Under the pieces are notes generated by a model, which ran no database searches, was not told where the DNA came from, and worked only from the letters and a program-made list of their open reading frames with translations. Below, piece by piece: positions 1,510-31,235 of a stretch of 48,188 nt of DNA. The stretch lies in the IMG/VR virus record IMGVR_UViG_3300021085_000055, positions 1-48,188 of that record; one strand, written 5' to 3'. Source of the stretch: a virus. Both the position numbers and the translations under genes were made by a program. Numbering within the stretch: position 1 is the first letter of the stretch; every line of letters begins with the position of its first letter.

Positions 1510-3135
1510 TTAAAGATTTGCCCCATCCCAATTTTGTACCATCCATTCTTGATCTGGTGATTCTATTTGCCATTGATCAGATGTTAATGCTGGATGTGAA
1601 ATATTATCTAAACCATCATCTACAAAACCCCAATTTAATACATCGTTTTCAATCTCTTGCATTCGCTGTTGAAACATCAAATCGCGTATGCTAATATCAG
1701 TTAATTCGCCAAATGCACTAGTGCCAGCAAAATATCCAAACATAATTAAATTCATAACAATGTCATCATGATTACCATCCGATGCTTCGTATGACGAACC
1801 TCTTGCAGTAAATGTAGAAATTTCTATAATTGTATCTTCATCTACAATTTCAAGTTTATTGTTTTCTAATAAATCTTTAAATGAAGAACATCCAATTCGT
1901 TTTACTTTACGAGTCATAAGAATACCAAGTGCATCCGCTTTAATAGCTGATTCAACAAACATATTTTCATATTCTAATTCATGATATAAGCCATTACATA
2001 CAACCATACCAGCATCATTTGATTCTATTACAACCATTGCTTGATTATAAGAATTTGCATACTTATATATAATATTAGGGAAGAGGAGAGGAGAGATAAG
2101 ATTATTGCGATATACAGCAACCTGCTTAAACGGCTCCGCGCTAATATCGATTACACTAAAAGTACTATAGTCCTGTCCTCTTCCTTTAGCAACATCAACT
2201 AACATTACATAATTGTGATCTTTGATTGGTTGATTATAAACTTTTACATCATCCTTTGTAATTTCTAATGGATCATGTCTTCTTAATTCAAGAAGTGTAT
2301 TAGCATTAATAAGAGTGTCACCTGTACCAAAGAATGTGTTTCCAAACTCTTGATCAAATTGTACAGGCGAAGTATTAGCTACTGTAGCTTTTTTCCACTC
2401 TTCGTCCCTTCCTGGAACGTCCCACCAGTCGACTCTAAATGGAATAAATTCGTTTGTTTCTTGTATTGCACCTTCCCATAATTTATGAAAAACATTACCT
2501 AAACCGTTTGCTGTAGATGTAATAATAACTTTTGTATCTTTACCAGATGATACAACTGGATAAGTTGAGGTATAAAACTCAGAAGCTCTTTCAACAAATG
2601 CAAACTCGTCAAGGTAAAGCAAATTAACTGACATCCCGCGAATAGATGATCCAGATGTCGCAGCAGCAACAATCCTTGAATTATTACTAAATTCAATAGA
2701 CCCTTTATTAAGAGCTTTACATCCAGGTTGTAAAAAAAATGGTAAGTTTTCTAGCATAAGTGTGACTCTACCAAGCATCTCACGAGCGGTAGCACCCTTG
2801 TTTGCCATAACAGCAATAACTTTTTCGCTATTAAAAAGTGCAAACCAAAGTAGATATGCCACTGATGAAATAGATTTACCAGATTGTCGACAGGCTAAAA
2901 CAATATTAAATCTGTTTGTATTAAACTGATTAAACATTTTTTCTTGGTAGGGATATAAATCAAATGGAACTAAACCTTTATCAAGGTGAATTACTTTACA
3001 ATATTTTCTCGCAAAGTATGTAGGATCTTGCATGCATCTAGCATATTCTTTAACTTCGTCATTTGTCCAATTAGTAACAACACCATCACGCTTAACACTT
3101 GGGTTGCCTAAATAAGAATCATTCTTTTCCATCAT
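1510..3135 (-). CDS. 17: Terminase large subunit, gp17-like
   Basis: A 541-residue protein of the usual length for T4-like large terminases, the ATP-driven motor and nuclease that packages DNA into the prohead. The ATPase half shows Walker A ACRQSGKS (residues 81-88), Walker B LLYLDEF (172-178, with the catalytic Glu) and the coupling motif TSTAN (206-210). The C-terminal RNase H-like nuclease half shows VDVAKGRGQDYS (D314), an IESNDAG acidic segment (E371) and DGNHDD (D457/D458), which are expected metal ligands. The gene overlaps the small terminase gene by 17 bp and is followed by gp18, as in T4. It starts with two Met codons in a row, and which one is used is not resolved by a clear ribosome site. 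Confidence 0.97.
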   Translation of the reverse strand: MMEKNDSYLGNPSVKRDGVVTNWTNDEVKEYARCMQDPTYFARKYCKVIHLDKGLVPFDLYPYQEKMFNQFNTNRFNIVLACRQSGKSISSVAYLLWFALFNSEKVIAVMANKGATAREMLGRVTLMLENLPFFLQPGCKALNKGSIEFSNNSRIVAAATSGSSIRGMSVNLLYLDEFAFVERASEFYTSTYPVVSSGKDTKVIITSTANGLGNVFHKLWEGAIQETNEFIPFRVDWWDVPGRDEEWKKATVANTSPVQFDQEFGNTFFGTGDTLINANTLLELRRHDPLEITKDDVKVYNQPIKDHNYVMLVDVAKGRGQDYSTFSVIDISAEPFKQVAVYRNNLISPLLFPNIIYKYANSYNQAMVVIESNDAGMVVCNGLYHELEYENMFVESAIKADALGILMTRKVKRIGCSSFKDLLENNKLEIVDEDTIIEISTFTARGSSYEASDGNHDDIVMNLIMFGYFAGTSAFGELTDISIRDLMFQQRMQEIENDVLNWGFVDDGLDNISHPALTSDQWQIESPDQEWMVQNWDGANL

Positions 3136-3511
3136 CTAATCTATCTGTAATATCAATTACGTTATCATCTTTAACAGGGTTATTCATATCTTGTAACATT
3201 CTTTGTAAATCTACTGTAGATCCTACAAATAAATTATTTGTTGTGCCTTCTGGCGCAGTTACTTGAAGTACATCTTTTTGATCATATGCCTTTTTCTTCT
3301 TATGTAAATCCATAAGACGGTCATTTACATCTGAAACATTTTTAATCATACCAGACACAACTTCAAAAGCTCGAGGATGTTCAAGATTCCTAGCTACTTC
3401 AATCATATCTTCTAGTGCAGCATTACCTTTTTCGATTAAATCGTAATATGTTCTACGAGAATAATCAAAGTCATCTTCTGGTAAATTGTCTGATTTTTTC
3501 CAATCACTCAT
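3119..3511 (-). CDS. 16: Terminase small subunit, gp16-like
   Basis: A 130-residue acidic protein with long predicted helices around residues 25-95, including a Lys-rich stretch at DLHKKKKAYDQK. Its size, its composition and its position directly before the large terminase, with translational overlap, fit the T4-like small terminase. That protein recognises viral DNA and stimulates gp17. No catalytic motif is expected. The assignment rests mainly on synteny and general resemblance to small terminases of marine T4-like phages. Confidence 0.85.
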   Translation of the reverse strand: MSDWKKSDNLPEDDFDYSRRTYYDLIEKGNAALEDMIEVARNLEHPRAFEVVSGMIKNVSDVNDRLMDLHKKKKAYDQKDVLQVTAPEGTTNNLFVGSTVDLQRMLQDMNNPVKDDNVIDITDRLDDGKE

Positions 3512-3751
3512 TTATCTAACTCTTTTTGTTCCGCTTAGCGAAGAAGCAGGTCCTGAAGGACTCGATGTAGAAGCTCTTTGCTCAATATCACGCATTGCTT
3601 TTGCCTGTGGTGATATTGTAACTCTATCAGGCAGTATCTCACGTGTTTTCTTTGTCTTATTTGGATTATGATTAGGACCATGCGGACTCATTAAGGCGCC
3701 TTTCATTGCTCCAACAAATGATTCTGAATTATATTGTTTAAATGATAACAT
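3512..3751 (-). CDS. Small basic protein of unknown function between gp15 and gp16
   Basis: A 79-residue basic, Pro/Ser-rich, probably disordered protein. Its stop codon lies immediately before the small terminase start. The N-terminus MLSFKQYNSES loosely resembles the short targeting peptides of phage internal head proteins, but I see no convincing protease site. The rest (HGPNHNPNKTKKTRE and a Ser-rich C-terminus) carries no recognisable domain. It could be a minor virion or head-associated protein. An imperfect late-promoter-like AATAAATA lies about 15 bp upstream. Coding status is supported by the tight packing with its neighbours. Confidence 0.6.
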   Translation of the reverse strand: MLSFKQYNSESFVGAMKGALMSPHGPNHNPNKTKKTREILPDRVTISPQAKAMRDIEQRASTSSPSGPASSLSGTKRVR

Positions 3752-3772: not shown

Positions 3773-4393
3773 TTACGGTGCTGGCCGACCAGTTACAGCT
3801 GCATAAGCATTTTTATAAATATTTCTAACAGCTTGTCTTCGTACCGCTGGCGCTGCAGCTCTTTTTTGAGCTTTTTGCTGAGTTCTCCAATTTTGAGTTG
3901 CTCTTTTTGCAGCATTTTTTATTATTGCTGCGTGTTGCTTAAAATCAGGATGATTATGAGAAATAGTTGTTGCTTTGCCATCAACACCTCTTAAAACTTT
4001 TTTTCCAGTAGAAGTTGTCATAACTTTACCATGATCTGGATGAACCACTGATGATGGTGGTGTAGGTTTCATTGCTTCTATACCAGCACGACCAACACTT
4101 TTTGCTACTTTTTTAATTCCTCTTCCAGTTGCATTTATTGCATTTGTGCGAGCTTTATTACCAGTAATAAAATCACCAATTTTTCCTCCAATGTTTCCGC
4201 CGGCGCTTCCACCCGCAAGCCCACCTGCTGCGAATCCAGCCATATTACCAATCCCAGGAGCAATAAAGCCGCCCGCAGTGCCACCAGCAATTGCTCCACC
4301 TAATCCACCGACAGCCCGACCAATCCCTGTGCCAATAGCTTTACCTAATTTGCCTTCATTAAGTTCTTCTCTTAATTCAAAATATGTTTTCAT
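3773..4393 (-). CDS. Gly-rich basic protein with T4 internal-protein-like N-terminus
   Basis: A 206-residue protein in three parts. Residues 1-16 (MKTYFELREELNEGK) resemble the capsid-targeting peptide of T4 internal proteins (MKTYQEFIAEA) and contain LRE and LNE, which fit the L/I-x-E cleavage rule of the T4 prohead protease. Residues 17-75 form a Gly/Ala-rich glycine-zipper-like stretch with several GxxxG spacings that could insert in or pack against a membrane. The C-terminal third is strongly basic (Lys/Arg/Gln), as expected of a DNA-associated protein. The start codon overlaps the gp15-like stop (ATGA). A packaged, possibly injected internal protein is an inference; a minor tail protein is the main alternative. 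Confidence 0.7.
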   Translation of the reverse strand: MKTYFELREELNEGKLGKAIGTGIGRAVGGLGGAIAGGTAGGFIAPGIGNMAGFAAGGLAGGSAGGNIGGKIGDFITGNKARTNAINATGRGIKKVAKSVGRAGIEAMKPTPPSSVVHPDHGKVMTTSTGKKVLRGVDGKATTISHNHPDFKQHAAIIKNAAKRATQNWRTQQKAQKRAAAPAVRRQAVRNIYKNAYAAVTGRPAP

Positions 4394-5187
4394 TGTGATG
4401 AATCTCCGTAATATTCTGTAACAGTTGTAAATCCAAAATCACTAAATGGTTGAGCATTTGCTGGGTTAGGCGTAGTAATTTGTTTAACATATAAACCATC
4501 AGAATCCGATCCGGAAGTTAATAATGTGGTTTTGTCTATATAAACATCGGTTGTAGTTTTCTTAATAATTTTACTTTGACGAATTGGACCATGAAAATTA
4601 ACTCTCATTCCAAAATCAAGAGTATAAATTATAGTTCTTCTTTGTTCCAATGATCCTTCAAAATCATCTTGAAATGATACTGATTGTAATGTAATCGGAA
4701 CATCTTCTTTTATATCTTCAAATCCAGAAAATGGTTTAAGAGTTAAAGTGTATTGTGGATTGAAATATGGTAAAATTTGTTCTACAATTTGTAAAGCATC
4801 ATCTTGCAATTTAGCATAAATGTTTAATGAGAAAAATATAGTGTATGGTGCTGGAGAATACATTTTATTTGAATGAGTAGTACTTGTACCATATGCTTTA
4901 TTATAATTATTATTCTTTGGAAGAATTCTTTCTGGATCATAAGCTAATGAAGTAATTTCAAAAGACATTCGTGGCAACTTTAAAGCCACTTTAGTATTGT
5001 CAACTAAAGATGGATTTTCTCTGATTCTTTCTAAATATTTATCTTTTGGTGCATATGCTAAAGGCACTTTTGTTTGGTCTATTATAGAACCATTTTTTGC
5101 AGTCCTTTGAACATAAATATCGTTAAATATTGTGCCAAATGTAGCAACAGCTTTTCTAATTCTTTCGTGATAAAAATATTGAAACAT
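4390..5187 (-). CDS. 15: Tail completion and sheath stabiliser protein, gp15-like
   Basis: A 265-residue protein beginning MFQYFYHERIRKAVATFGTIFNDIYV. The pattern of a short HERIRKAV helix, then FNDIYV, then KVPLAYAPKDKYLERI is typical of gp15 from T4-like marine phages, the ring that caps the tail tube and sheath and joins the tail to the neck. It lies directly after gp14 (start and stop share a base at 5187) and before the small genes leading to gp16, matching T4 order. Nothing appears truncated. Confidence 0.9.
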   Translation of the reverse strand: MFQYFYHERIRKAVATFGTIFNDIYVQRTAKNGSIIDQTKVPLAYAPKDKYLERIRENPSLVDNTKVALKLPRMSFEITSLAYDPERILPKNNNYNKAYGTSTTHSNKMYSPAPYTIFFSLNIYAKLQDDALQIVEQILPYFNPQYTLTLKPFSGFEDIKEDVPITLQSVSFQDDFEGSLEQRRTIIYTLDFGMRVNFHGPIRQSKIIKKTTTDVYIDKTTLLTSGSDSDGLYVKQITTPNPANAQPFSDFGFTTVTEYYGDSSQ

Positions 5188-17963: not shown

Positions 17964-20900
17964 TTATTTTTCTATGAACAGCCAACCATTAGCTACATTA
18001 TAATATACTAATCCAAATGCTGCTCTATTAACATCAATTGTTAGATCTGAATCTCCGCCTTCAATTTTATGACCATTTCTTCCAATTGTAATAGCGTTTG
18101 TAGCAGCCTGACCAGTTCCATCAATAATTCTAATTTCATCTCCAAGCGATGCAGCTACTGGAAGATTAACTGTTTTAGTAGTGCTTGTATCAATAATTAA
18201 TCTTTGCCCAGCGACCGCAGTAATCGGTGTTGTAGTAATCTCTGCCCATGCTGCAGGAAGATTAACTCTTGCTGCAACATATGCACTATCAACTAATCCC
18301 TGTAATGCTTGTTCATTAACAGTAACATTACCTGCTTTATTTTCAATTGCAGTAATTGTGATTTCATCAGATGCGGAAGCACCAGACGTTAGTGTAATAG
18401 TATTTGTTATTGGATTAGATGTAAAGTCATCTGAATCCATAAGTTTAATACCATTTTGGAATACACTAAAGTTACTTGAATCGATTCCTAATGTTTTAGA
18501 ATTAGCATCAGCACCAGTAAACGCTGTTTGACCATTTGTAGCGATAAACTTAAAGGTGTTTATAAATGTATCGCCAACCATAATATGTGATGTCGTTTGT
18601 AATAAAGTATTAATTACAAGATCATCACCCGAGTCAGCAGTAAATCCATTTAATGTTATTGAATTTGCTGCAGCATTAACTGTATAATCTACAGCAGATA
18701 TTAAACGAATACCATTATTAAATACTTGATAATTATCAGTATCAATTGCTAGAGGTAAGCCATTTTTATCATTACCAGAGAATACTGTTTGTCCAGAATC
18801 AGCTTCAAAATAATAATTAGCAAAACTAACGCCAGTCGTAGCTGTTCCGCCCGATGATCGAGCCGCAACATATGCGCTATCAATCATTCCAGTTACAGCA
18901 GCAGAATCTGTACCTGCTGGTAACACGCCTGGAGCCCAATACTTATTTGAGTTGTCCCAAATTAATATCTGACCTTCAGTTGGCGGAGTTGTATGAACAT
19001 CTTGAGCTAATGTAATGATATTACCTGTTGTTGATCTAGTTAATGTTTGAATAACTACATCATCTGAATCAGCTGCGCCTAATGTTAAAGTAACAGTATT
19101 AGTACTAGAGTTAACATTATAATCTTCAACTCTATTTAAACGAATACCATTTAAATATACTTGATGATTACTATCTGTTATTGATAGAGATTGTGAATTG
19201 AGATCATTACCAGTAAATGCTGTTTGACCAGCTGTTGCTCTAAACTTATAGTCTTTAAAATTAGTTTTACCAGCAAGAATATAGTTAGCTCCAGTACCAG
19301 TGCTAATATTAGTTATGACTAAATCATCTCCAACATTTGCTCCAGTAGTAAGAACAACTCCTGTTGTTCCAGATACTGTATAATCAATATCTTTAAGAAG
19401 GTGAATACCATTTAAATATACTTGAATTCCAGTAGCAGTTACTGCAAGAGTATTACCAGCAACATCAGTACCACTAAATGTTGTTTGGTTAGCAGTTGCA
19501 GTAAATCTAAAGTTAGAATATTCAGATGAAACTGCAGCACCACCACTAGAAGTTTGTCTTGCTTGAATATAATCGCTATCAATTAAAGCTATTATTGTTG
19601 CACTATCAGCTGAACCGCCAGCGCTAGAAGCTGCTCCTGGAATCCATTTACTTGTTGCGGTATTATATACTAATGCTTGTCCATTTGTTGGAGATGGAGC
19701 ATTAACATCTGTAAGAGCACCAAGTGTTGTTACTCCAGCTGAAGATCTTGCTAAAACATATGCTGAATCAATCATCCCACTTACGGCTGAACTATCAATC
19801 CCTTGTGGAACAACTCTTGCTTGAACATATGCTGAATCAACTAATGTTCTTACGCCGACAGAATCATATTTTTCTCCAATAAGAGCTGTAATAGTAGTTG
19901 AGAAATTAGCATCATTTCCAAGTGCAGTTGCAAACTCATTTAGAGTATCCATTGCAGCTGGAGCCCCATCAATTAAATTATTAATAGCAGTGGTAATATC
20001 AGCGCCAGAAGCAAGATCTACCCAAGAACCAGCATGAGCAAAATATGCTTTGCCTGTTGCATGGACATGGGCGAACATACCATGATAAGACGCAGCGCTT
20101 GGAAGATCACTTAGCGCTGAATAAACATTAGAATATAGGATCTTATTCGCACCCATATCCAGATCTTTACCGGTAATATTGCTATCAACTCGTAAATCTG
20201 TATAATATAAATTTGAATCTTCGGCAAGATTCTTTGTAGTTGCTCCACTTAGATCAATTGGAAGAGCCACACCTAAAGAATCAGTAGTAGTAAATACACC
20301 ATTACTTTCTTTAATTCTTATTCCACCAAGATGGATAGTTGAACCACTTAAATATAAATCTCTCCATGCAGCAGTTGAACTACCGAGATCAAATAATTTA
20401 TCTGCACCTGGAATAATAGTATTGAATGTTACGTTAGTATTTTCTAATGGAATGCCTTGCCAATTTCCGCCTTTTGCTATTCTTGCAGTATTATCACCTG
20501 TAGTAACTGCAACCATACCAGTATGCGTAGCGGCATTGGGTAATGCACCAGTATTGGATGCACTTGATTTAAATGTAATATTATGGCTACCAAAATCAAC
20601 TGGTCTACTGCCTATTCCAGTTATTAGATTAACATGAGCACTATCAGCTATTGATTTAATATAATCACTATCAGCTACAAACTTAATATAATCGCTATCA
20701 GCTATTGATTTCACATAATCTGAATCTGCAATTGATTTCACATAATCTGAATCTGCAATTGATTTCACATAATCGCTATCAATGATTCCTTTAATATAGT
20801 CACTATCAGCTATTGATTTTACATAATCTGAATCTGCTACTGATTTAATGTAATCACTATCAGCTATTGATTTAATATAGTCCGAATCTGCTGCCGATTT

Positions 20901-23900
20901 AATATAATCGCTATCAGCTATTGATTTAATATAAACATCATTAGCAATAAATTTAATGTAATCACTGTCAGCTACCGTTTTAATATAATCGCTATCAGCT
21001 ATTGATCTAATATAATCACTGTCAGCTACTGTTTTAACATAATCACTATCAGCAATTGATTTAATATATTCAGAATTAATAATAAATTTAAAATGATCTG
21101 AATCAAGTTTACCAGCAGCAACCAGATCTCCTTTTTGTATTCTTCTGTTAATAAAGTCTGAATCCATAATGCCGTCAATAATATCAACACCATTAATGTG
21201 ATATTTCATACCTGCAGCAATATTAATACCGTCTTTTGCGATTTTGGGGAGAGCAGGTACGCCTATGTCAATTGCAAAATTGCCAGATGGAGAAGTGCGG
21301 TCATAAAGTATTGATGACCGAGTCGTTGTAGCTTCTGGATCAATCTCATAGCCACCAAGTTCTTGTGATAAAATATTTGATGTATTTAGAGCAACACCAT
21401 TTAGTAGTATTTGAGAGGTGCCGCCGATATTACCAATTTCTAAATTTCCTGCTTTACCATTACCAGACTGAATTTTTGCATTGCCGGAAACTAGTAAATG
21501 ATAATTAGGATCAGCAATTGCGCCTATACCCATTTTAAAGCCAGGAAGATCACCATTAAATACGCCGCTAAGTTCACGCCTCATGTAATTGTTAGTAGTT
21601 AATATTTGATTAACTAAACCAATTCCTTCATCCGAATTTAAAAATGCAGTATCATCAAGATTCGCCATAATATAATTTTGATCAATCGCCTGTTGATAAG
21701 TTTGACCTTTTGTAAATCCATGATTTTGTTGTCTTTCAAATACATAATCAGAATCAAAATATTCTGTAGCAGAATCAGGACCAATATAAAATTGTGCAGT
21801 TTGGTGAGTAAGATAAACTTGATTTCCCTGATGCGAATCAAGAATCTTATCACCTTGCCAATACAGTGATTGTACGTTAACACTACCATTAACATCTAAA
21901 TCGTAACCAGGTGATGAAGTTTTAATCCCGACTCTTGGAGCTGTAGTACAAAGATAACCAGTGGTTGCATCATTGTAAAAATACATTGATTTCGGCATAG
22001 TTGCTCGATAGTGTGTAGGATCAATATGTGATTGTACCCACGCAGCATCAGCATTAAATCTTATCCAAGCTTGATTAGCAACATTGTTTCTAATGTAATG
22101 ATAAAGAGTTTGACCTTGATGATATGCATCACCCGACCAATTTATGCTTCCATCAATATCTACCATATAAGCCGTATTAGGACTTACTTTATTAACCCCT
22201 ACTGTTCCACCCATCAGAGCTATGACATTATTAGCTGCAACAGTTGCTTGTACAGAACTACTTGTATATGAACCAATTGCAACAGAATTTGTTCCAGTTA
22301 CAGATACACCGGAACCTATCGATATTGCACCGTTACCCGAAGCTTGAGCATATGAACCTAAAGCCATACCGCCATTACTGACAATGTTTTCTTTACCAAA
22401 TCCAAACCCATTTTCGCTTACATTATTTTTATTACCAAATGCATAAGCAAGATTAGATGTGCCACCATCAACAGCGTTCTCGTAACCATAAGCGTGACCT
22501 CCATTAACAATAGTATTTAGATCGCCATAAGCCCAGCCAAAATCAGTAATTATATTGTCTTTACCGTAAGCATCACCAAATCCAGTAATGTTATTACGAG
22601 TACCGTAAATATTCCCGCCTTTGGTTTGTACATTTTGACCACCAAATATATAGTTACCCTGACCCCCATTTGCGGAACTGTTTCTACCGGTAAGGTTTTT
22701 GTTGTCTGAACCATATACCCTTGTTCCATACCAATTCTCATTAGAAGAGCCATATACTTCTGAATTATATACAATATTTTTATTTTCATTGCCATAAACT
22801 TTAGCCGCGTTGTTTACAGTCTCATTTGCATCACCATAAATTTTAGCATTTTTAGATGCACCTGAATTAACAGAACCAAATACATGTGATTCAGAGATAC
22901 TAGTATTATCGCCACCAAAGACTCTAGAAGCTTTACCAGTGGTATTACTAACTCCAAATGTAACTGATCCATTACCAGATCCAACATTATCTTTACCAAA
23001 GACAGTGGAGTTATTGCCACTTGCTCTATTAGATACACCGTAAGATATAGCACTTTTTCCAGTTGCATCAGTATTAATACCAATTGCAACTGAGTTATTA
23101 GCAGACGATTTACTTCCAATACCAATCGCGGTAGATGTAGTACCACTTGCTGCCACGCCTGAACCCATTGATACTGCGGTTTTTCCTGCAGCTGAACTAT
23201 GACCTATTGCTATACCACCAACACCAGTAGTATTATTTTGACCTATTAAAATAGAGTTTTTTGGCGGTGCTGTGCCTGCGCTGGTAGGATAATTATCTCT
23301 ACCAATATTTAATCCTGCTTCTCCGCCTGTTAAATTATATCCAATTGTTACAGCATTTATTCTTGTATTAACAAGTAAAGATCCAATAGCAGTATTATTT
23401 ACGTGAGAAGGTTGATTGCCATCATCGCCAGTAATATCTCTACCAATTACAACTCCACGGCCAGTTTCAAGTGTTTTACCAATTGCAACTCCACCTTCAT
23501 CTGTTTTAGATGTACCCTTTGCTCCTACGTTAGTGATACCAATACCAAGAGATAGTGAATTTTGCTTATTGCTATTTGTAATATCTTTACCTACCGCAAC
23601 ACTAAATTGTCCAGGATTGGTAATTGTATGTCCTATTGAAACAACTCTAGTAGTGTGTAATGGTTGTTTTGTATGGCCATCAGCAGCATAATCAACGTTA
23701 CCAGCAGATACATTATAACCGATAGCTGTTGAATGATCAGTAGCTACAACATTTGCACCAATACCTTGTGAGAATATGCCAACTTCTCCACTATCCCAAG
23801 TTGCCTTTTTACCGTCAACCCAACCGGCTCTAAAGGCTGCATAGCCAGGAATCCACATTAATCTTGCGCCAGAATCGAGTTGTTCACCTCCACCTGTTCT

Positions 23901-26900
23901 TGGAACTACGCCTGCTTTTGGATGCTCTGAGCTATCAATTAGGATTGAGCTTAAGAATAATACATTACCAGAATCTACGGCAAATCTAGTTTGATCAAAT
24001 GGATCGATCATATCTCTTTTACCGATAATCACGCCGCCTTCTTCATCATAGTATATTTGTTGATTCGGAGACGTTCCTATTCTATTCCAAGGATCGGTAA
24101 TTCTTGATCCAATATAATCATCATTGACAATTCTCATAATATTAGAATCAAAAGATCTTCCAACATAAGGATTAACTAAATTAAAACCTTTTGCTGAATC
24201 ATATGATACTGGATAATATGGACCAAAATAGAATTCAGCAGATTCGCCAGATGTCATGGTTTGTCCAACAGAATCCCAAACAGCTCCACCATATAATGTT
24301 CGCCAAGCTTCATCGGCCCTGCGCTCTTTATAACCAAATAGCAATCCGCCATTTTGGATTTTACCAATACCACTGTCTAATGTAAATCCAGTTTTAAATA
24401 TAGCACTATCTTCAAATGTAAACTGTGTAGTAGCTTTTGCTGAACCGCTATCCCCTTCACTAGCAATATTTAAATTACCACTTAATAAAATTTGTGGATT
24501 GCGAAGATTTCTATCACCAATAACAGAAAGAGGACCTTTAACTGTAAGAGATGCATCATTCTTTCTGCTTCTTGTTTTAACTTTAATTTGATCGCCGACT
24601 GCCAATCTTGTATTAGCTTCTGAATCATAAATGTGTATGAGAGAGTTAGTTACTTCTTCCCATTTCTCTCCACCAGATTCAAGTTCAATATCATTAATAA
24701 ATATTTGTGTTAAACCATTTTTAATATATTCAAGAACATTAGGTGAAGTTGAATTATCAGTATCTTGAAGTCTTAGTCCACTGCGGGACGAGATTGTAGA
24801 TGAAGTTAAAAGATGTAAACCTCTATTAATAATGTCAATAGAATGAGTATGTGTCATCGACGGAGTACTGTCATATCCAGGAATAGATTGCTCGCGTATT
24901 TTAATTTGATTGCCATTGACCCAAGCCCAATCACCGGTAGATATTCCGTTTCCAACAGCGTTTAGCGTTCCTTTTGTTAAAGCGGTAGAATCAAATCCAC
25001 TAGTTAATGGGCTAGTAACATCTTTAGGAGTAACTAACATCACACTCATAAAATTTGAGTCTAGTCCAGGCGTTCCACTGATACTAAAGTCTGCTGCAGA
25101 TTCACCATAGGGCAGACCTGGGCTTGTCGCAGACGTCAGTATTGAATATAATACAGGATCACCATAAATTATTGAATTAGGATGTGTGATGAAATAGCTA
25201 TCAGCTGCATTTACAGTAAAATTAAATATGTATTCTGAATCTACTGTTACCTTAGATCCTTCAATAATACTATGTCCACCAGCGCTAAATCCAGAATCAA
25301 CTCTTACATCACCTCTAACGTATAACTTAGATCCAGGATGATCGATAGGTGCACTATCAGCGCCAATCGCCACGTTAGCATATGAGTTAAACCCAACACC
25401 ACCAAAATAAAGAGTATGACCATCAGCGGATCTTCTCCAATGTGAACTATCATTAGCATGATGAAGAATATAGTTAGGACTAATAATAGTTTTCATATAA
25501 CCAGAATCAATAACAGAAGAAATAACTGCCGAGTCAATATTCATTCTATTTTTTACATAATCATTAGTAACAATCGTTGCAATATAGTCTTCGGTTGGCC
25601 AAGCAGCTTCGTTTCCAAGATTATTAGTAGTAATAATAGGAGATTTATGATCAATTGCAGCTTGACGTGAAGCCTTGTCTTCTGCTGGCCTAGAAGCATA
25701 AGCAGCTGGAATATCTATTCTAGCTTTACCATCCATATCAAGCTGGAATTTCCATCTTGCATTCCCAGTTGCATCGACTTCTTCATAATCTGCAGCATTG
25801 ACATCTATATTATTTTTATTAATTACGACTGGATTTGTTCTGCCCGGGCTTTGGTCATTAATAAGCTGATTGCCACCTTTTAATGACCAGAAATTATCAA
25901 TAGAAACTCTTGCTTGAACATATGCAGAATCAAGATGATTTTCTAGAATTGGAATAAGTCCACCAGTTGGTCTTACAACAAAACTGTCAAATGACATTCT
26001 TTCACCAGTACCAGGATTATCACCAATTGTAAATGTACTACCTGCAATAGATTGTCTAAAATGAACTGAGCCTTCTACAGTAGCGCTATCACCAACAGTT
26101 AATTTACCTAGAACATTTAAATTAGCGCTTGAAGTAGTTTTTTGTTTAGGTATGACATGAATATAATTTGCTGAGGTAGTAACTGGAGTTCCGGTATAAT
26201 CTGCGCTTAAAACTGGAACTGTTAATACATCATCTGTAAATAATTCAAATTTATTAGTATAACCAGCATCTAGTAATCCATCAGCATTTGCATCAGGTCC
26301 AACAAAATATGTATTTCCATTTAGATCTGTAAATGTTCCGCCAGTAATACCTGATAATCTAACACCATCACCTACTGTTAATCCATGAGCTGTTGATGTA
26401 ATTGTTAAATTTGTTCCGGTAGTATCAAATGCCCATGCAGCGCCTGAGACGGGTGCTGCAACTATTACAACTTCATATGATCCGGTCGGTGGGCTTGGAA
26501 CAAATATAGTTTCACTTTGAGTATCAAGTGCAGTAGTACATGCTCTATCAGTAAATAACTCAAAATTATTAGCGTCAACTGCCTGAACAAAATATACATT
26601 ATCAGCAGCAGATGTATAATTAAAGCTACTAGAAGGTCCAGCATTTCCATCAGTGAGACCACTAAATTTAACAGCTAATCCAGATCCAGCCCCACCTCCA
26701 CCAGGATGCGTCAATGCAGTACCACCTCCACCGGCTGATCCAAGTAAATGCCCGCCAGCAGGTACGTTTACAACCGCCGCCGCGGCTTTGGAAACAGAAA
26801 ATGCTGATGTTTGTACAGAGGGTGGAGTAACCGGGGTAGTTTTTATTACACCAGTAACAACAACTGTTGGAGCAGTTCCGGCAATATAGTCTTTAATATT

Positions 26901-29900
26901 AAGACCGCCGATGTGAAGTGTAGCACCACTATCAATATTTACATCACCATGAATATCTAATGTATAATTTCTATTAAAGCCAGAATTATAAATTGTAGAA
27001 TTACCATGTGCCACCTGCGCAGTTTTACCAATCATAATATTGGTATTATTTAAACCTTTATTAACAAGAGCGCTATCAAAAAGACTTGATCCAGAATCGT
27101 TAAAAATTGCTGGCTTCATAATCACAATGCCGTTTTCTAATCCTGTAGGGATAAACGCATTTCCACCTATGAAAGTTGTATTTTTAGCCCCACCGCCAGT
27201 TATTCCACCATATTGTGGATTTACATTATTAACTGAATGTGAATCTTTCCAACCAGCACCAATAATATAATTGTTAGTAAAATTATCATGGAAAACTTCG
27301 TTACTTTCACCAAATATGAAATTTTGATTTCCATTTGTATAAAGAGTATTACTTGTTCCTATTACATAAGATTTATTTGTACTTCTTACTGTAGAAGCAT
27401 TTGCTAATCCGAACAAATTATCTCTACCTATAGTATAAAGATCTGTTCCACTATTCATTGAGTCTTGAATATTATTTTGGCCAAGGAATAGATTATTATC
27501 TGTTAAAATAATATTTTCTTTACCGATAGCAATACTGTTTCTACCTTGTGTAGTGGTAGCAGTGCCTCTAAATACTATATTTCCTTGACTTCTTCTTTGT
27601 CCAACTTTATTTTTTTCGCCAAGAGATATAGAGTTTTTACCTCTAGCATAAGGTTCTTCACCCATACCTATAGAGAAGATTCCTAAATCAGAATTTACAT
27701 GCTCATCAAGTAAAACCTTACCGGCTCTAATAAGTCCAGCTCTTGAACTATACATAAACATATTATTATATGTGTTACCTGGGAAGGTTCCGGCAGAATC
27801 AAATATAGCAGAATCTGTGGATGCATAAGTTAATAGCGTAGTTCCATCAACTTGGAAATCACCTCTAATATCAAATTCTGTATTAGGAGTCGTTTTTCCA
27901 ACACCAACATTCCTTGGTGTTTCCATAAGAATAAATTCTCCATTGTCTTCAAATGGATTGCCGGCGATTGGAGACCCGCCGAGCGGATTTAATTTCATTA
28001 CGTCCCCGCCGTAAAGAATATCACCGCCTACAAATAAATTACCAGCACCTTTAACAGATGGATCAAACATATCAGATTCTCTACCAATCGATACGTTACC
28101 ACCTTGAATAGCTAAAAGATTTTCATCATCAACTTGACCCACAATATTCCGAAGTGTATTAGCCGGATCTTGACCAGCGCCTGGAGTTGCTGTTGATGGT
28201 CTTAAACTAATATTCATGCTGTTATTAGCAACAACCTTACCGCCGCCACCAATAGCAAACGAGTTAGCTCCCTGAATAACTTGATCATGGCCTATAGCAA
28301 ACGATGTATTACCAGAAACTTTATTATTAAAACCAAAAGCAAACGCCAAAGTTCCGCTAACTGAATCTAAAGCACCAAATATAAATGATGATTGTCCGTC
28401 AGCTATATTATCAATACCAATTATATTATTGTTATTGCCACCAAGCGACCTATTTCCTGCACCAATTAACAATGTGCTATTACCAGATGGTAAAGCCATA
28501 TTGTTTTTACCAAACATATAGCTTGCATTTCCAGCAGTAGTATTATTATGGCCAATCAGAACACTATTAATACCAATTGTTGTTGCAAACCCACCACTTC
28601 GATCTGAGTTTTCAATTCCTATTAATACATTATTCCCACCTTTAACTATATTGCGCTGGCCCATAGCAATTGAATTAGTGGCGCCGGTGTTAACACTACT
28701 ACTATCACCTACAACAAAACTAAAATCACCTTTAGCTTTAACATTTTTGCCAAATGCTACGGAATAAGTACCAATATCGTTCCAGCTGTAATCGTTATGA
28801 TTTGTAAAATAGCCGCCGCGAGTTGCAGCTTTACCCGGAATAAATGAAAACCTTGAACCTTTATCTGAATCTATATCAGCTTCATCATAATTAGCTAAAC
28901 CACTATATATAGTTTTTGCATCTAGATGCATTGATATCTCACCTGAAGTTTGGGGAGAATAGCCAGCATCTGTATTAAGTGGACCTTTAACTTGGAATGG
29001 GCCACCATGTACTTCAAATCGTGCTTTAGATCTAGTAGTTCCTACACCTATTCTACCAAATCCTCCAGATGGATATGTAGCAGTAAAATCTCTTGGCTCA
29101 AAATAAGCATTATCTATATTATCAGATGTAAATAGACCGCCGCCAGTAAACGGAATTCCGTTTTGCATAAGAGAACCGGTGAAGTTAATAGTACCATCTT
29201 TATGAACTTCAAATAAAGAGCTATCTTCAAGAGACATTGCTCTTATTAGAACTGATACATCTGAATCGTTTGCAGCATTAACACCATCTCCAGGAAATCT
29301 TCTAATCGATGCCCCGTCTGCTTTTGATATATCACTTTTAAAATAGTTGATAGGTAAAGTAGATTGTAAATAGTGTCTACCCTGTGAGTCTTTTCCAGCG
29401 TGAGAAGCACTTATTTTTAAACCATAAAAATCTCTTGTTTGAGCTGAATCAGGAAAATATACTGAGTTAGCATCAAAATTATTTCTTAATTCAGGTCTAT
29501 ATTTGTAAGATCCAATTTTTACTCCGGATGCATCGATATTACCAGTTGATTTATGAACAATAAATCTATTCCATCCAGAGTCTTGCGCAACTTGTTTTGC
29601 TGTCATAAGACCATCAAAAGAAGCACCCGCCGCTAAACCGTAATAGAAAGATTGATGTTCGCCAAAATGTAATTCGCCGCCTTGAATTGAGTCGCTTAAT
29701 CCTACAGTTAAAAGCGCACCAGGCACTAAAGAGTTAACTCTGAGTTTATCAAACACAGCTGGTGCATATGATATAACTTCACCGGTTGGTAAAATAGTTA
29801 ATCCTGTATTTACTCCTTGTGTTGCTCCAATCCGTAATCCATTAGTTGAATCATATAAAAAGTCAGAATCGCCTTGTAAAGAAAAATCAGGTCCTACATG

Positions 29901-31235
29901 TGCAACCGCGCCTAATTTTAATGCGCCGCCCGGAACATTTAAATCTAGTTTATCAACTTTTAAATACTCAACAAAAGCAGAATCTGCTTTAAGGTATTTG
30001 AAATATGCTGAGTCAGCTTGTAAATCTTTATTATAGAAAAGTCTATTTGTTGTCCAATAATTTTCATATTGTGTTCCGGCAGCTCCAGCCTGCCAGGTAA
30101 AAGATGCTCCAACAGGACCGCCTACTGTAATGCCTGCTCCTGATGCAAATGCAGAGTCGGCAGCATTATCAGCCACAACAATGTTTTTATCTACAATAGT
30201 AACAGTTTCAGATTGAATTGATGTTGTTGTTCCTTGCACATTAAGATTACCAATAATATTAACATCACCCGCAACATCACCAAACGGAAATGGATCAATA
30301 TTAATAGTAGTTGGACCACGATATTCCGGGCTATGTGCAATACCAAAACTATGATATAAAGAATGTCCACTGTCAATTAAAGCCCCGTCAATATGGGCAT
30401 AAGTTAAATGAGCAGAATCAACATCAAGTTGGCTAATATCAGCTGAATCTGCTTTAAAATGACTAATATATGCGCTATCAACATCAAGCTGACTGATGTA
30501 GGCAGAATCACCCTTTAATCTAGAAATAAACGCAGAATCGACATCGAGCTGACTGATGTAGGCAGAATCGCCCTTTAATCTTGAAATATAGGCACTATCA
30601 ACATCTAACTGAGAAATGTATGCGGAATCGCCCTTTAATCTAGAAATAAACGCAGAGTCAACATCTAACTGACTAATATAACCACTATCAACATCAAGCC
30701 TTGAAATATACGCAGAATCGACATCAAGCTGACTAATATATGCTGAGTCTGCAGTTAGCCTTGAAATATATGCAGAGTCCACATCTAAATCAAATATGTA
30801 TGCTGAATCTGCTGTTAATCTAGAAATATAACCCGAGTCAACATCTAATTTCCATATAAACGCTGAGTCTGCAGTTAACCGTTTTAAATGGGCGCTATCA
30901 ACATCTAAATCTTTAATATGAGCTGAGTCTGCGGTTAGTCCATGGACATATAATAGATCAACTGCTTTTTCTGAGTCAAGAAGAAGAAATTTATTTCCAA
31001 CTGCAATACCAGGATTTCCTGCTGACTGCAATAGAGACATAAATTTTTCGCCGCCAACTGCAGCTACTCTACTTGCTATTTGTGGAACTGCAGTTGAGTC
31101 AACGGCTGGTCCTACGCCAACATATAATGTTCCGCCTGCAATACTATCATAATATGAATATGCTAATTCACCTAGTGCTAAACTTGACGGTGCAGTTGCC
31201 GTGCCTGATCTTTTAATCTGGATTATAGATGCCAT
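17964..31235 (-). CDS. Giant 4423-aa tail fibre-like protein
   Basis: A single uninterrupted frame of 4423 residues. The N-terminus (MASIIQIKRSGTATAPSSLALGELAYSY) is the usual start of marine T4-like fibre proteins. Residues 100-279 are eighteen tandem 10-residue units (LDVDSAYISR type). Three blocks at about 795-1010, 1180-1355 and 2480-2985 carry the xxSxAxGxxxxxxGxxS strand pattern of trimeric autotransporter (YadA-like) heads. Residues 3379-3531 are seventeen 9-residue units (SDYIKSIAD type). Residues about 3905-4295 hold four related QTxFSG...DYTV domains. The C-terminus (DLTIDVNRAAFGLVYYN then GWLFIEK) is a recurrent phage fibre tip. It is probably a trimeric fibre. A late promoter lies 40 bp upstream. 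Confidence 0.88.
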   Translation of the reverse strand: MASIIQIKRSGTATAPSSLALGELAYSYYDSIAGGTLYVGVGPAVDSTAVPQIASRVAAVGGEKFMSLLQSAGNPGIAVGNKFLLLDSEKAVDLLYVHGLTADSAHIKDLDVDSAHLKRLTADSAFIWKLDVDSGYISRLTADSAYIFDLDVDSAYISRLTADSAYISQLDVDSAYISRLDVDSGYISQLDVDSAFISRLKGDSAYISQLDVDSAYISRLKGDSAYISQLDVDSAFISRLKGDSAYISQLDVDSAYISHFKADSADISQLDVDSAHLTYAHIDGALIDSGHSLYHSFGIAHSPEYRGPTTINIDPFPFGDVAGDVNIIGNLNVQGTTTSIQSETVTIVDKNIVVADNAADSAFASGAGITVGGPVGASFTWQAGAAGTQYENYWTTNRLFYNKDLQADSAYFKYLKADSAFVEYLKVDKLDLNVPGGALKLGAVAHVGPDFSLQGDSDFLYDSTNGLRIGATQGVNTGLTILPTGEVISYAPAVFDKLRVNSLVPGALLTVGLSDSIQGGELHFGEHQSFYYGLAAGASFDGLMTAKQVAQDSGWNRFIVHKSTGNIDASGVKIGSYKYRPELRNNFDANSVYFPDSAQTRDFYGLKISASHAGKDSQGRHYLQSTLPINYFKSDISKADGASIRRFPGDGVNAANDSDVSVLIRAMSLEDSSLFEVHKDGTINFTGSLMQNGIPFTGGGLFTSDNIDNAYFEPRDFTATYPSGGFGRIGVGTTRSKARFEVHGGPFQVKGPLNTDAGYSPQTSGEISMHLDAKTIYSGLANYDEADIDSDKGSRFSFIPGKAATRGGYFTNHNDYSWNDIGTYSVAFGKNVKAKGDFSFVVGDSSSVNTGATNSIAMGQRNIVKGGNNVLIGIENSDRSGGFATTIGINSVLIGHNNTTAGNASYMFGKNNMALPSGNSTLLIGAGNRSLGGNNNNIIGIDNIADGQSSFIFGALDSVSGTLAFAFGFNNKVSGNTSFAIGHDQVIQGANSFAIGGGGKVVANNSMNISLRPSTATPGAGQDPANTLRNIVGQVDDENLLAIQGGNVSIGRESDMFDPSVKGAGNLFVGGDILYGGDVMKLNPLGGSPIAGNPFEDNGEFILMETPRNVGVGKTTPNTEFDIRGDFQVDGTTLLTYASTDSAIFDSAGTFPGNTYNNMFMYSSRAGLIRAGKVLLDEHVNSDLGIFSIGMGEEPYARGKNSISLGEKNKVGQRRSQGNIVFRGTATTTQGRNSIAIGKENIILTDNNLFLGQNNIQDSMNSGTDLYTIGRDNLFGLANASTVRSTNKSYVIGTSNTLYTNGNQNFIFGESNEVFHDNFTNNYIIGAGWKDSHSVNNVNPQYGGITGGGAKNTTFIGGNAFIPTGLENGIVIMKPAIFNDSGSSLFDSALVNKGLNNTNIMIGKTAQVAHGNSTIYNSGFNRNYTLDIHGDVNIDSGATLHIGGLNIKDYIAGTAPTVVVTGVIKTTPVTPPSVQTSAFSVSKAAAAVVNVPAGGHLLGSAGGGGTALTHPGGGGAGSGLAVKFSGLTDGNAGPSSSFNYTSAADNVYFVQAVDANNFELFTDRACTTALDTQSETIFVPSPPTGSYEVVIVAAPVSGAAWAFDTTGTNLTITSTAHGLTVGDGVRLSGITGGTFTDLNGNTYFVGPDANADGLLDAGYTNKFELFTDDVLTVPVLSADYTGTPVTTSANYIHVIPKQKTTSSANLNVLGKLTVGDSATVEGSVHFRQSIAGSTFTIGDNPGTGERMSFDSFVVRPTGGLIPILENHLDSAYVQARVSIDNFWSLKGGNQLINDQSPGRTNPVVINKNNIDVNAADYEEVDATGNARWKFQLDMDGKARIDIPAAYASRPAEDKASRQAAIDHKSPIITTNNLGNEAAWPTEDYIATIVTNDYVKNRMNIDSAVISSVIDSGYMKTIISPNYILHHANDSSHWRRSADGHTLYFGGVGFNSYANVAIGADSAPIDHPGSKLYVRGDVRVDSGFSAGGHSIIEGSKVTVDSEYIFNFTVNAADSYFITHPNSIIYGDPVLYSILTSATSPGLPYGESAADFSISGTPGLDSNFMSVMLVTPKDVTSPLTSGFDSTALTKGTLNAVGNGISTGDWAWVNGNQIKIREQSIPGYDSTPSMTHTHSIDIINRGLHLLTSSTISSRSGLRLQDTDNSTSPNVLEYIKNGLTQIFINDIELESGGEKWEEVTNSLIHIYDSEANTRLAVGDQIKVKTRSRKNDASLTVKGPLSVIGDRNLRNPQILLSGNLNIASEGDSGSAKATTQFTFEDSAIFKTGFTLDSGIGKIQNGGLLFGYKERRADEAWRTLYGGAVWDSVGQTMTSGESAEFYFGPYYPVSYDSAKGFNLVNPYVGRSFDSNIMRIVNDDYIGSRITDPWNRIGTSPNQQIYYDEEGGVIIGKRDMIDPFDQTRFAVDSGNVLFLSSILIDSSEHPKAGVVPRTGGGEQLDSGARLMWIPGYAAFRAGWVDGKKATWDSGEVGIFSQGIGANVVATDHSTAIGYNVSAGNVDYAADGHTKQPLHTTRVVSIGHTITNPGQFSVAVGKDITNSNKQNSLSLGIGITNVGAKGTSKTDEGGVAIGKTLETGRGVVIGRDITGDDGNQPSHVNNTAIGSLLVNTRINAVTIGYNLTGGEAGLNIGRDNYPTSAGTAPPKNSILIGQNNTTGVGGIAIGHSSAAGKTAVSMGSGVAASGTTSTAIGIGSKSSANNSVAIGINTDATGKSAISYGVSNRASGNNSTVFGKDNVGSGNGSVTFGVSNTTGKASRVFGGDNTSISESHVFGSVNSGASKNAKIYGDANETVNNAAKVYGNENKNIVYNSEVYGSSNENWYGTRVYGSDNKNLTGRNSSANGGQGNYIFGGQNVQTKGGNIYGTRNNITGFGDAYGKDNIITDFGWAYGDLNTIVNGGHAYGYENAVDGGTSNLAYAFGNKNNVSENGFGFGKENIVSNGGMALGSYAQASGNGAISIGSGVSVTGTNSVAIGSYTSSSVQATVAANNVIALMGGTVGVNKVSPNTAYMVDIDGSINWSGDAYHQGQTLYHYIRNNVANQAWIRFNADAAWVQSHIDPTHYRATMPKSMYFYNDATTGYLCTTAPRVGIKTSSPGYDLDVNGSVNVQSLYWQGDKILDSHQGNQVYLTHQTAQFYIGPDSATEYFDSDYVFERQQNHGFTKGQTYQQAIDQNYIMANLDDTAFLNSDEGIGLVNQILTTNNYMRRELSGVFNGDLPGFKMGIGAIADPNYHLLVSGNAKIQSGNGKAGNLEIGNIGGTSQILLNGVALNTSNILSQELGGYEIDPEATTTRSSILYDRTSPSGNFAIDIGVPALPKIAKDGINIAAGMKYHINGVDIIDGIMDSDFINRRIQKGDLVAAGKLDSDHFKFIINSEYIKSIADSDYVKTVADSDYIRSIADSDYIKTVADSDYIKFIANDVYIKSIADSDYIKSAADSDYIKSIADSDYIKSVADSDYVKSIADSDYIKGIIDSDYVKSIADSDYVKSIADSDYVKSIADSDYIKFVADSDYIKSIADSAHVNLITGIGSRPVDFGSHNITFKSSASNTGALPNAATHTGMVAVTTGDNTARIAKGGNWQGIPLENTNVTFNTIIPGADKLFDLGSSTAAWRDLYLSGSTIHLGGIRIKESNGVFTTTDSLGVALPIDLSGATTKNLAEDSNLYYTDLRVDSNITGKDLDMGANKILYSNVYSALSDLPSAASYHGMFAHVHATGKAYFAHAGSWVDLASGADITTAINNLIDGAPAAMDTLNEFATALGNDANFSTTITALIGEKYDSVGVRTLVDSAYVQARVVPQGIDSSAVSGMIDSAYVLARSSAGVTTLGALTDVNAPSPTNGQALVYNTATSKWIPGAASSAGGSADSATIIALIDSDYIQARQTSSGGAAVSSEYSNFRFTATANQTTFSGTDVAGNTLAVTATGIQVYLNGIHLLKDIDYTVSGTTGVVLTTGANVGDDLVITNISTGTGANYILAGKTNFKDYKFRATAGQTAFTGNDLNSQSLSITDSNHQVYLNGIRLNRVEDYNVNSSTNTVTLTLGAADSDDVVIQTLTRSTTGNIITLAQDVHTTPPTEGQILIWDNSNKYWAPGVLPAGTDSAAVTGMIDSAYVAARSSGGTATTGVSFANYYFEADSGQTVFSGNDKNGLPLAIDTDNYQVFNNGIRLISAVDYTVNAAANSITLNGFTADSGDDLVINTLLQTTSHIMVGDTFINTFKFIATNGQTAFTGADANSKTLGIDSSNFSVFQNGIKLMDSDDFTSNPITNTITLTSGASASDEITITAIENKAGNVTVNEQALQGLVDSAYVAARVNLPAAWAEITTTPITAVAGQRLIIDTSTTKTVNLPVAASLGDEIRIIDGTGQAATNAITIGRNGHKIEGGDSDLTIDVNRAAFGLVYYNVANGWLFIEK
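18345..19515 (-). repeat. Four divergent tandem domains near the giant fibre C-terminus
   Basis: Four copies of a domain of roughly 75-95 residues recur with the core QT-x-F-S/T-G-x-D, then YLNGI/FNNGI, then DYTV/DYNV and a D-D/E-x-V/I-I-T ending. Copies begin near 19500, 19230, 18800 and 18535. The copies have diverged clearly at DNA level, so the duplication is old. Confidence 0.7.
20643..21101 (-). repeat. 27-bp coding repeat array (17 units) in the giant fibre
   Basis: Seventeen 27-bp units encode 9-residue repeats of consensus SDYIKSIAD (residues 3379-3531). The unit length is constant with no interruption. Silent changes (for example TCA/AGT Ser and ATA/GTG-type changes) show selection on the protein. 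Confidence 0.9.
30399..30938 (-). repeat. 30-bp coding repeat array (18 units) in the giant fibre
   Basis: Eighteen 30-bp units encode 10-residue repeats of consensus LDVDSAYISR/LTADSAYISQ (residues 100-279). Units partly alternate between LDVDSAY, LTADSAY and LKGDSAY types, so larger two-unit duplications probably contributed. Confidence 0.9.

Follow-up and report, generated by a model that had tools for sequence, protein, structure and literature searches.

The gp15/gp16 junction and its two tagged genes

The window analysed here, a stretch of 48,188 nucleotides taken from a 48-kb virus record, is a fragment of a T4-like (Kyanoviridae-like) phage. On its minus strand the structural genes follow in the order gp13, gp14, gp15, X, Y, gp16, gp17 and gp18; the last of these was assigned by eye, since it follows gp17 just as it does in C48C1. 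This is the nearest named phage, with a terminase 71% identical, and in it gp15 and gp16 directly adjoin with nothing between them. In the window, the two genes called X and Y here lie between them (Table 1), and the start of X overlaps the stop of gp15 (ATGA, 4390-4393). The gp21 gene is absent from the window, which lacks the gp21 region.

Table 1. Coordinates of the genes at the junction and of the features within X.
Feature	Position	Strand	Description or basis
gp15, tail sheath stabiliser, left flank of insert	4390..5187	-	Pfam PF16724 E 1e-69; PHROG 227
X	3773..4393	-	206-aa candidate internal head protein, begins MKTYFELREELNEGKLGKAIG
Capsid-targeting-like peptide, X residues 1-13, MKTYFELREELNE	4355..4393	-	profile score, hhalign, conserved in relatives
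Candidate gp21-type site LRE, X residues 7-9	4367..4375	-	pattern scan
Candidate gp21-type site LNE, X residues 11-13	4355..4363	-	pattern scan; stays next to G when an insertion shifts it
Glycine zipper, X residues 17-73	4175..4345	-	GxxxG every four residues, runs 17-37 and 49-69
Predicted strand-strand-strand-helix unit, X residues 121-170	3884..4033	-	AlphaFold pLDDT about 80-86; conserved GVDGKxTxI
Basic C-terminus, X residues 166-206, predicted long helix	3776..3898	-	9 K+R, no D+E; AlphaFold
Y	3512..3751	-	79 aa, MLSFKQYNSE; second tagged gene, adjoins X
gp16, small terminase, right flank of insert	3119..3511	-	PHROG 445 E 1e-35

X is a real, selected gene. Nine relatives were found at 81-100% identity, several of the 100% ones possibly being the same phage, together with a further five that are more distant. 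Four relatives could be aligned with the window over the full length of X. The dN/dS values of X, 0.21-0.49, show purifying selection, with gp15 more tightly constrained (0.11-0.12). A search for X across 50,697 phage records gave no match. In the lineage of L012, L013, L014 and L015, X contains a PAATQPQT repeat, the copy number of which varies between contigs.

The junction was compared among 145 sequences having both genes on one strand, a set that counts the window twice (also as L010). The distance from the end of gp15 to the gp16 match was below 100 bases in 109 of these, 15 carry X, and the inserts in the others are unrelated. X therefore sits in an insertion slot. In L020 this slot carries Y without X. 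Elsewhere, nuclease-like, radical-SAM-like and structural-looking genes were recognised in it by eye (L058:917-1336, L155:4130-5020, L131:3144-10465).

Y had not been remarked on as a second tagged gene in the initial annotation of this DNA. In the case of L011-L014, Y is longer (184-187 aa, MLTFKGYATALDEGK) and shows a glycine zipper and a lysine/histidine-rich stretch, followed by the C-terminal part of the short form. The long Y repeats the arrangement of a tag plus a glycine zipper. It has one L/I-x-E, LDE13, followed by GK, and X of the window likewise reads LNE13-GK. Cleavage of the short Y is doubtful, because no L/I-x-E site is found in it.

Two other regions of the window stood out. 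Four open reading frames between 33593 and 42899 match one radical-SAM family (PHROG 1802), with 2OG-Fe(II) oxygenase-like genes occurring in the same run, and a single open reading frame of 4423 aa spans 17964-31235 on the minus strand.

The N-terminus of X, its candidate cleavage sites and its mature part

The initial annotation had likened the N-terminus of X to those of T4 internal proteins, and this resemblance was borne out: T4 IPII and IPIII begin MKTYQEFIAEA, and X has Y at residue 4, L at residue 7, LRE ending at residue 9 and LNE ending at residue 13. According to passages of a T4 review, packaging needs no more than the ten N-terminal residues of IPIII, of which 4 and 7 serve in targeting and 8 and 10 in processing; propeptide length is 10-19 residues, and gp21 cuts after L/I-x-E (PMC9026906). 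Both targeting determinants are present in X as Y4 and L7, the latter a conservative change from F. To put the likeness in numbers, a profile made of seven N-termini of a core gene adjacent to gp21 and of T4 IPI-III was run over 10,574 internal methionines and 2,492 ORF N-termini. The internal methionines reached at most 11.3 and X of the window 18.5; leaving IPI aside, X comes immediately after the training set.

The core gene just mentioned occupies the position of T4 gp68, immediately upstream of gp21, and starts M[KRQ]TFx[ENQ][LI]RE in C48C1, G008, G011 and G013-G016, where its length is 65-73 aa. It lies within 10 bases of gp21 in eight of the ten members checked. In the remaining two, G001 and G002, both carriers of X, the core-gene homologue MIKFKELKANLHEA was found about 1.2 kb upstream of gp21. 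In C48C1 the tag is hidden because the annotated start of CDS0012 (46 aa), at 14491, falls inside the gene; this start is probably too far downstream, and an upstream one (L016:14434-14631) adds MRTFKELREA. The core gene shares its tag with X, but differs in being 65-74 aa long and in having no glycine zipper. When both families were compared by hhalign, only columns 1-11 aligned (55% identity, P 6.8e-4), and over so short a stretch the probability reaches only 27%. An alignment confined to these columns fits a shared tag on unrelated proteins.

The tag is also conserved within the X family. Distant relatives have a five-residue insertion between LREE and LNEG, and both MKTYF[EQ]LREE and LNEG are kept at a whole-protein identity of 51%. 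A scan for M[KRQLI].[FY]..[LI]RE in the loci analysed, T4 excepted, gave 24 distinct N-termini, which by eye comprised 13 of the core family, seven of X and four belonging to a single gene cluster present in C48C1 and G008. This three-gene tagged cluster (L017:16424-18408 and L187:17969-19924, respectively) encodes proteins starting with MKKFTEIREARR (67/70 aa), MKDFFELRE (424/415 aa) and MKKFKQY (105 aa).

LRE and LNE, which had been put forward as gp21-type protease sites, could be located by the pattern scan as candidate sites. In all six X sequences the L/I-x-E motif occurs twice, both times within the tag (ending at 9 and 13, or at 9 and 18 in distant relatives), and never later. T4 IPII, IPIII and IPI have one each, ending at 10, 10 and 19, and T4 gp67, gp68 and gp22 have 3, 5 and 16. 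The second site of X, ending at 13 or 18, consequently lies within residues 10-19; at the exact T4 position, residues 8-10, X reads REE. As X has L at residue 7, where IPII and IPIII have F, and R in place of I at residue 8, the T4 cut after residue 10 is unlikely in X, and LRE-E or LNE-G are the candidates. The absence of a later L/I-x-E is by itself not rare, as it applies to 15.2% of 692 ORFs of the same size. The mature part has 0-2 glutamates, and four X sequences fall in the lowest 2% compared with these 692 ORFs. Altogether, sites restricted to the tag and a glutamate-poor mature part form the pattern of a retained internal protein, unlike that of degraded core proteins.

Regarding the protease, a gp21 homologue was found in G001 and G002, both X carriers, thus in two of the six records searched, the other four being fragments. 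The major capsid protein precursors of C48C1 and G001/G002 show, by eye, LTE in the region of the FLTE of T4 gp23. This LTE suggests L/I-x-E specificity for the gp21-type protease.

The Gly-zipper stretch and the strongly basic C-terminus that the initial annotation had described were both confirmed (Table 1). Counted from G14, mature X would have 19.3 kDa and a predicted pI of 11.75. In the AlphaFold model, residues 1-86 are unreliable and only about 111-180 are fairly confident. The maximum 19-residue hydropathy of the mature part is 1.31, so that the zipper is only modestly hydrophobic for a membrane helix and, as the model is unreliable in this region, a membrane step can be suggested only tentatively. 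An HMM of the C-terminal unit, searched against 2,492 ORFs and two S-CREM2 proteins, detected no homologue outside the X family.

Tags on other phage proteins

Because the virion proteins of the cyanophage S-CREM2 have been tabulated (52 proteins in the table of PMC10665884), the occurrence of tags could be compared with virion content. The motif M..[FY]..[FYLIMV]..E matches five of 219 CDS, four of which are in this table, namely the SAM hydrolase, the APH-like kinase, the cytidylyltransferase and gp136 (p = 0.012). With L allowed at residue 4, five of eight matching CDS are in the table (p = 0.02); both values refer to all 219 CDS. Once 27 proteins named as head or tail components are set aside, p is 0.001, and if E may stand at residue 9 as well as at 10, the values are 0.09 and 0.007 instead. 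All five virion matches differ from the three others in having K or Q at position 2, a distinction seen post hoc. This link to the virion concerns the motif with E at residue 10, not the LRE subtype of X. The virion-detected enzymes (L252-L255) begin with T4-type tags such as MKNFSSFLTE and MKRFDAFLTE. In passages of the S-CREM2 paper, its authors consider that non-structural virion proteins may be encapsulated, and these passages name no targeting signal (PMC10665884).

In the case of S-SCSM1, a 50-kb stretch (72 complete CDS, after dropping two cut ones, with eight virion-noted) contained two motif matches, one of them a virion protein, which was not significant (p = 0.21). This phage has an NMNAT (L256:28819-30048) that begins MKSFLQFLKE and is reported in virions in passages of PMC9602691; similarly, S-SM1 virions contained a cytidylyltransferase, according to part of PMC3037559.

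The strict motif M.[TSN][FY]..[FYLIMV]..E was found in 20 of 2,189 marine ORF N-termini and at none of 9,254 internal methionines (p 4e-15), a count that repeats homologues (X four times), includes at least one match that looks like chance (a 585-aa ORF of G010) and is based on greedy ORF calls, not annotation. It had no match in 6 of the 16 marine genomes or records (HTVC008M, Syn9, G012, G013, G014 and G016). When the motif was relaxed and its site loosened, 10 of 269 T4 ORFs and 13 of 1,043 internal methionines matched, and this version was dropped as too loose. Several tagged proteins look like enzymes, being P-loop kinase-like (AAA_33, zeta-toxin-like), DUF6267, HAD-like or cytidylyltransferase-like (L187:7316-8002, L187:12129-13349, L236:5579-6184, L206:12347-13660). 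In T4 itself, gp61.1 (L241:18966-19130), annotated as hypothetical, begins with the targeting-like MKTFKEFIKE. In the literature library searched, capsid targeting combined with cyanophage listed only the T4 review, and among the papers listed by further searches none was seen to propose such tags for marine phages. Across the marine T4-like phages, T4-type tags may label proteins carried in the head; this would not hold for every phage, as Syn9 and HTVC008M have no strict match.

The proposed role of X

Judged from sequence, the N-terminus of X is supported as a T4-type capsid-targeting sequence, a prediction already made in the initial annotation and one to which the tag of the core gene, the IP-like distribution of protease sites and the association between tags and virion proteins in S-CREM2 lend support. 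We consider it likely, with a probability of roughly 70%, that X behaves as the internal head proteins of T4 do, being loaded by its tag, cut by gp21, packed with the DNA and ejected, with a role at the membrane. Residues 1-13 would bind the assembling prohead core, and the gp21-type prohead protease would remove the tag after LNE13 (or LRE9). Loading and cleavage are predictions supported by the sequence. Trimming would leave about 19 kDa of X, very basic and protease-resistant, to be packed together with the DNA. The later steps, ejection and membrane action, are proposed more indirectly: at infection mature X would exit the head along with the DNA, its glycine zipper would probably enter the host inner membrane and its basic tail would hold DNA, by which X could aid genome entry or act early on the envelope. 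Y would be a second, similar head cargo.

Since the closest tag to that of X belongs to the core gene beside gp21, X could also be a scaffold-like component of the prohead core, degraded and expelled in maturation like T4 gp67, gp68 and gp22. Such a protein would be expected to have multiple internal gp21 sites, as the T4 core proteins do; X has none beyond the tag, its mature part is nearly free of glutamate, and we regard this explanation as improbable. Another explanation starts from the neighbouring tail gene gp15 and from PHROG matches over X residues 13-176 to a tail lysin (1047, E 4e-11) and to tape measures (167 and 794), according to which X would be a tail or tape-measure-like protein with a zipper related to the membrane segments of these proteins. 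These are partial matches on the glycine-rich stretch to profiles of 763-1555 positions, compared with 206 aa in X, and a viral fold library search with the X model gave nothing below E 0.9. The homology was rejected as compositional, and a tail protein seems quite unlikely.

Finally, as the junction holds unrelated inserts in other phages and is closed in C48C1, X could be a non-virion accessory gene, e.g. for an early membrane or lysis-timing protein, with an incidental likeness of its tag. Against this, two adjacent genes are both tagged, the profile score of X is far above chance, the tag is kept where identity over the remainder has fallen to about half, and LNE-G is preserved across the insertion. 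An accessory gene outside the virion is therefore very improbable in our view.

A broader reading can also be formulated, to which we give about even chances. Marine T4-like phages would use T4 capsid targeting as a general delivery route, in which short N-terminal tags, cut by gp21, load the heads with X and Y, as membrane-active glycine-zipper proteins, and with enzymes (SAM hydrolase, kinases, nucleotidyltransferases, polynucleotide-kinase-like and HAD proteins), all of which would be injected into ocean bacteria. If so, the tag alone would tell which proteins an uncultured phage injects, and a short sequence rule would pick out head-carried, injected proteins that are at present concealed as hypothetical ones. 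This reading would also explain the SAM hydrolase and nucleotidyltransferases in cyanophage virions, and what abundant marine phages deliver into cells would become directly testable. With X, the known T4 internal proteins would be joined by a cargo that has a glycine zipper and possibly acts on membranes.

Podovirus ejection proteins, such as those of P22 and T7, are likewise carried in the head and act at the envelope as the DNA enters, and the role proposed for X is alike. They are not known to bear a T4-type tag, and the likeness is one of role. The tagged S-CREM2 virion proteins listed (SAM hydrolase gp6, kinase gp14, gp136 and cytidylyltransferase gp154) resemble X in the aromatic residue 4, the hydrophobic residue 7 and E10. 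They differ from it in that E at residue 10 goes with a hydrophobic residue 8, as in T4, and in being enzymes or basic proteins; in gp136 no glycine zipper was seen by eye. Like X, T4 IPI-III are basic (as described in part of PMC9026906) and have an MKT[YF] start and a propeptide of 10-19 residues that ends in L/I-x-E, with no later site. X departs from them by its glycine zipper and its two candidate sites, and the mature parts are unrelated by eye.
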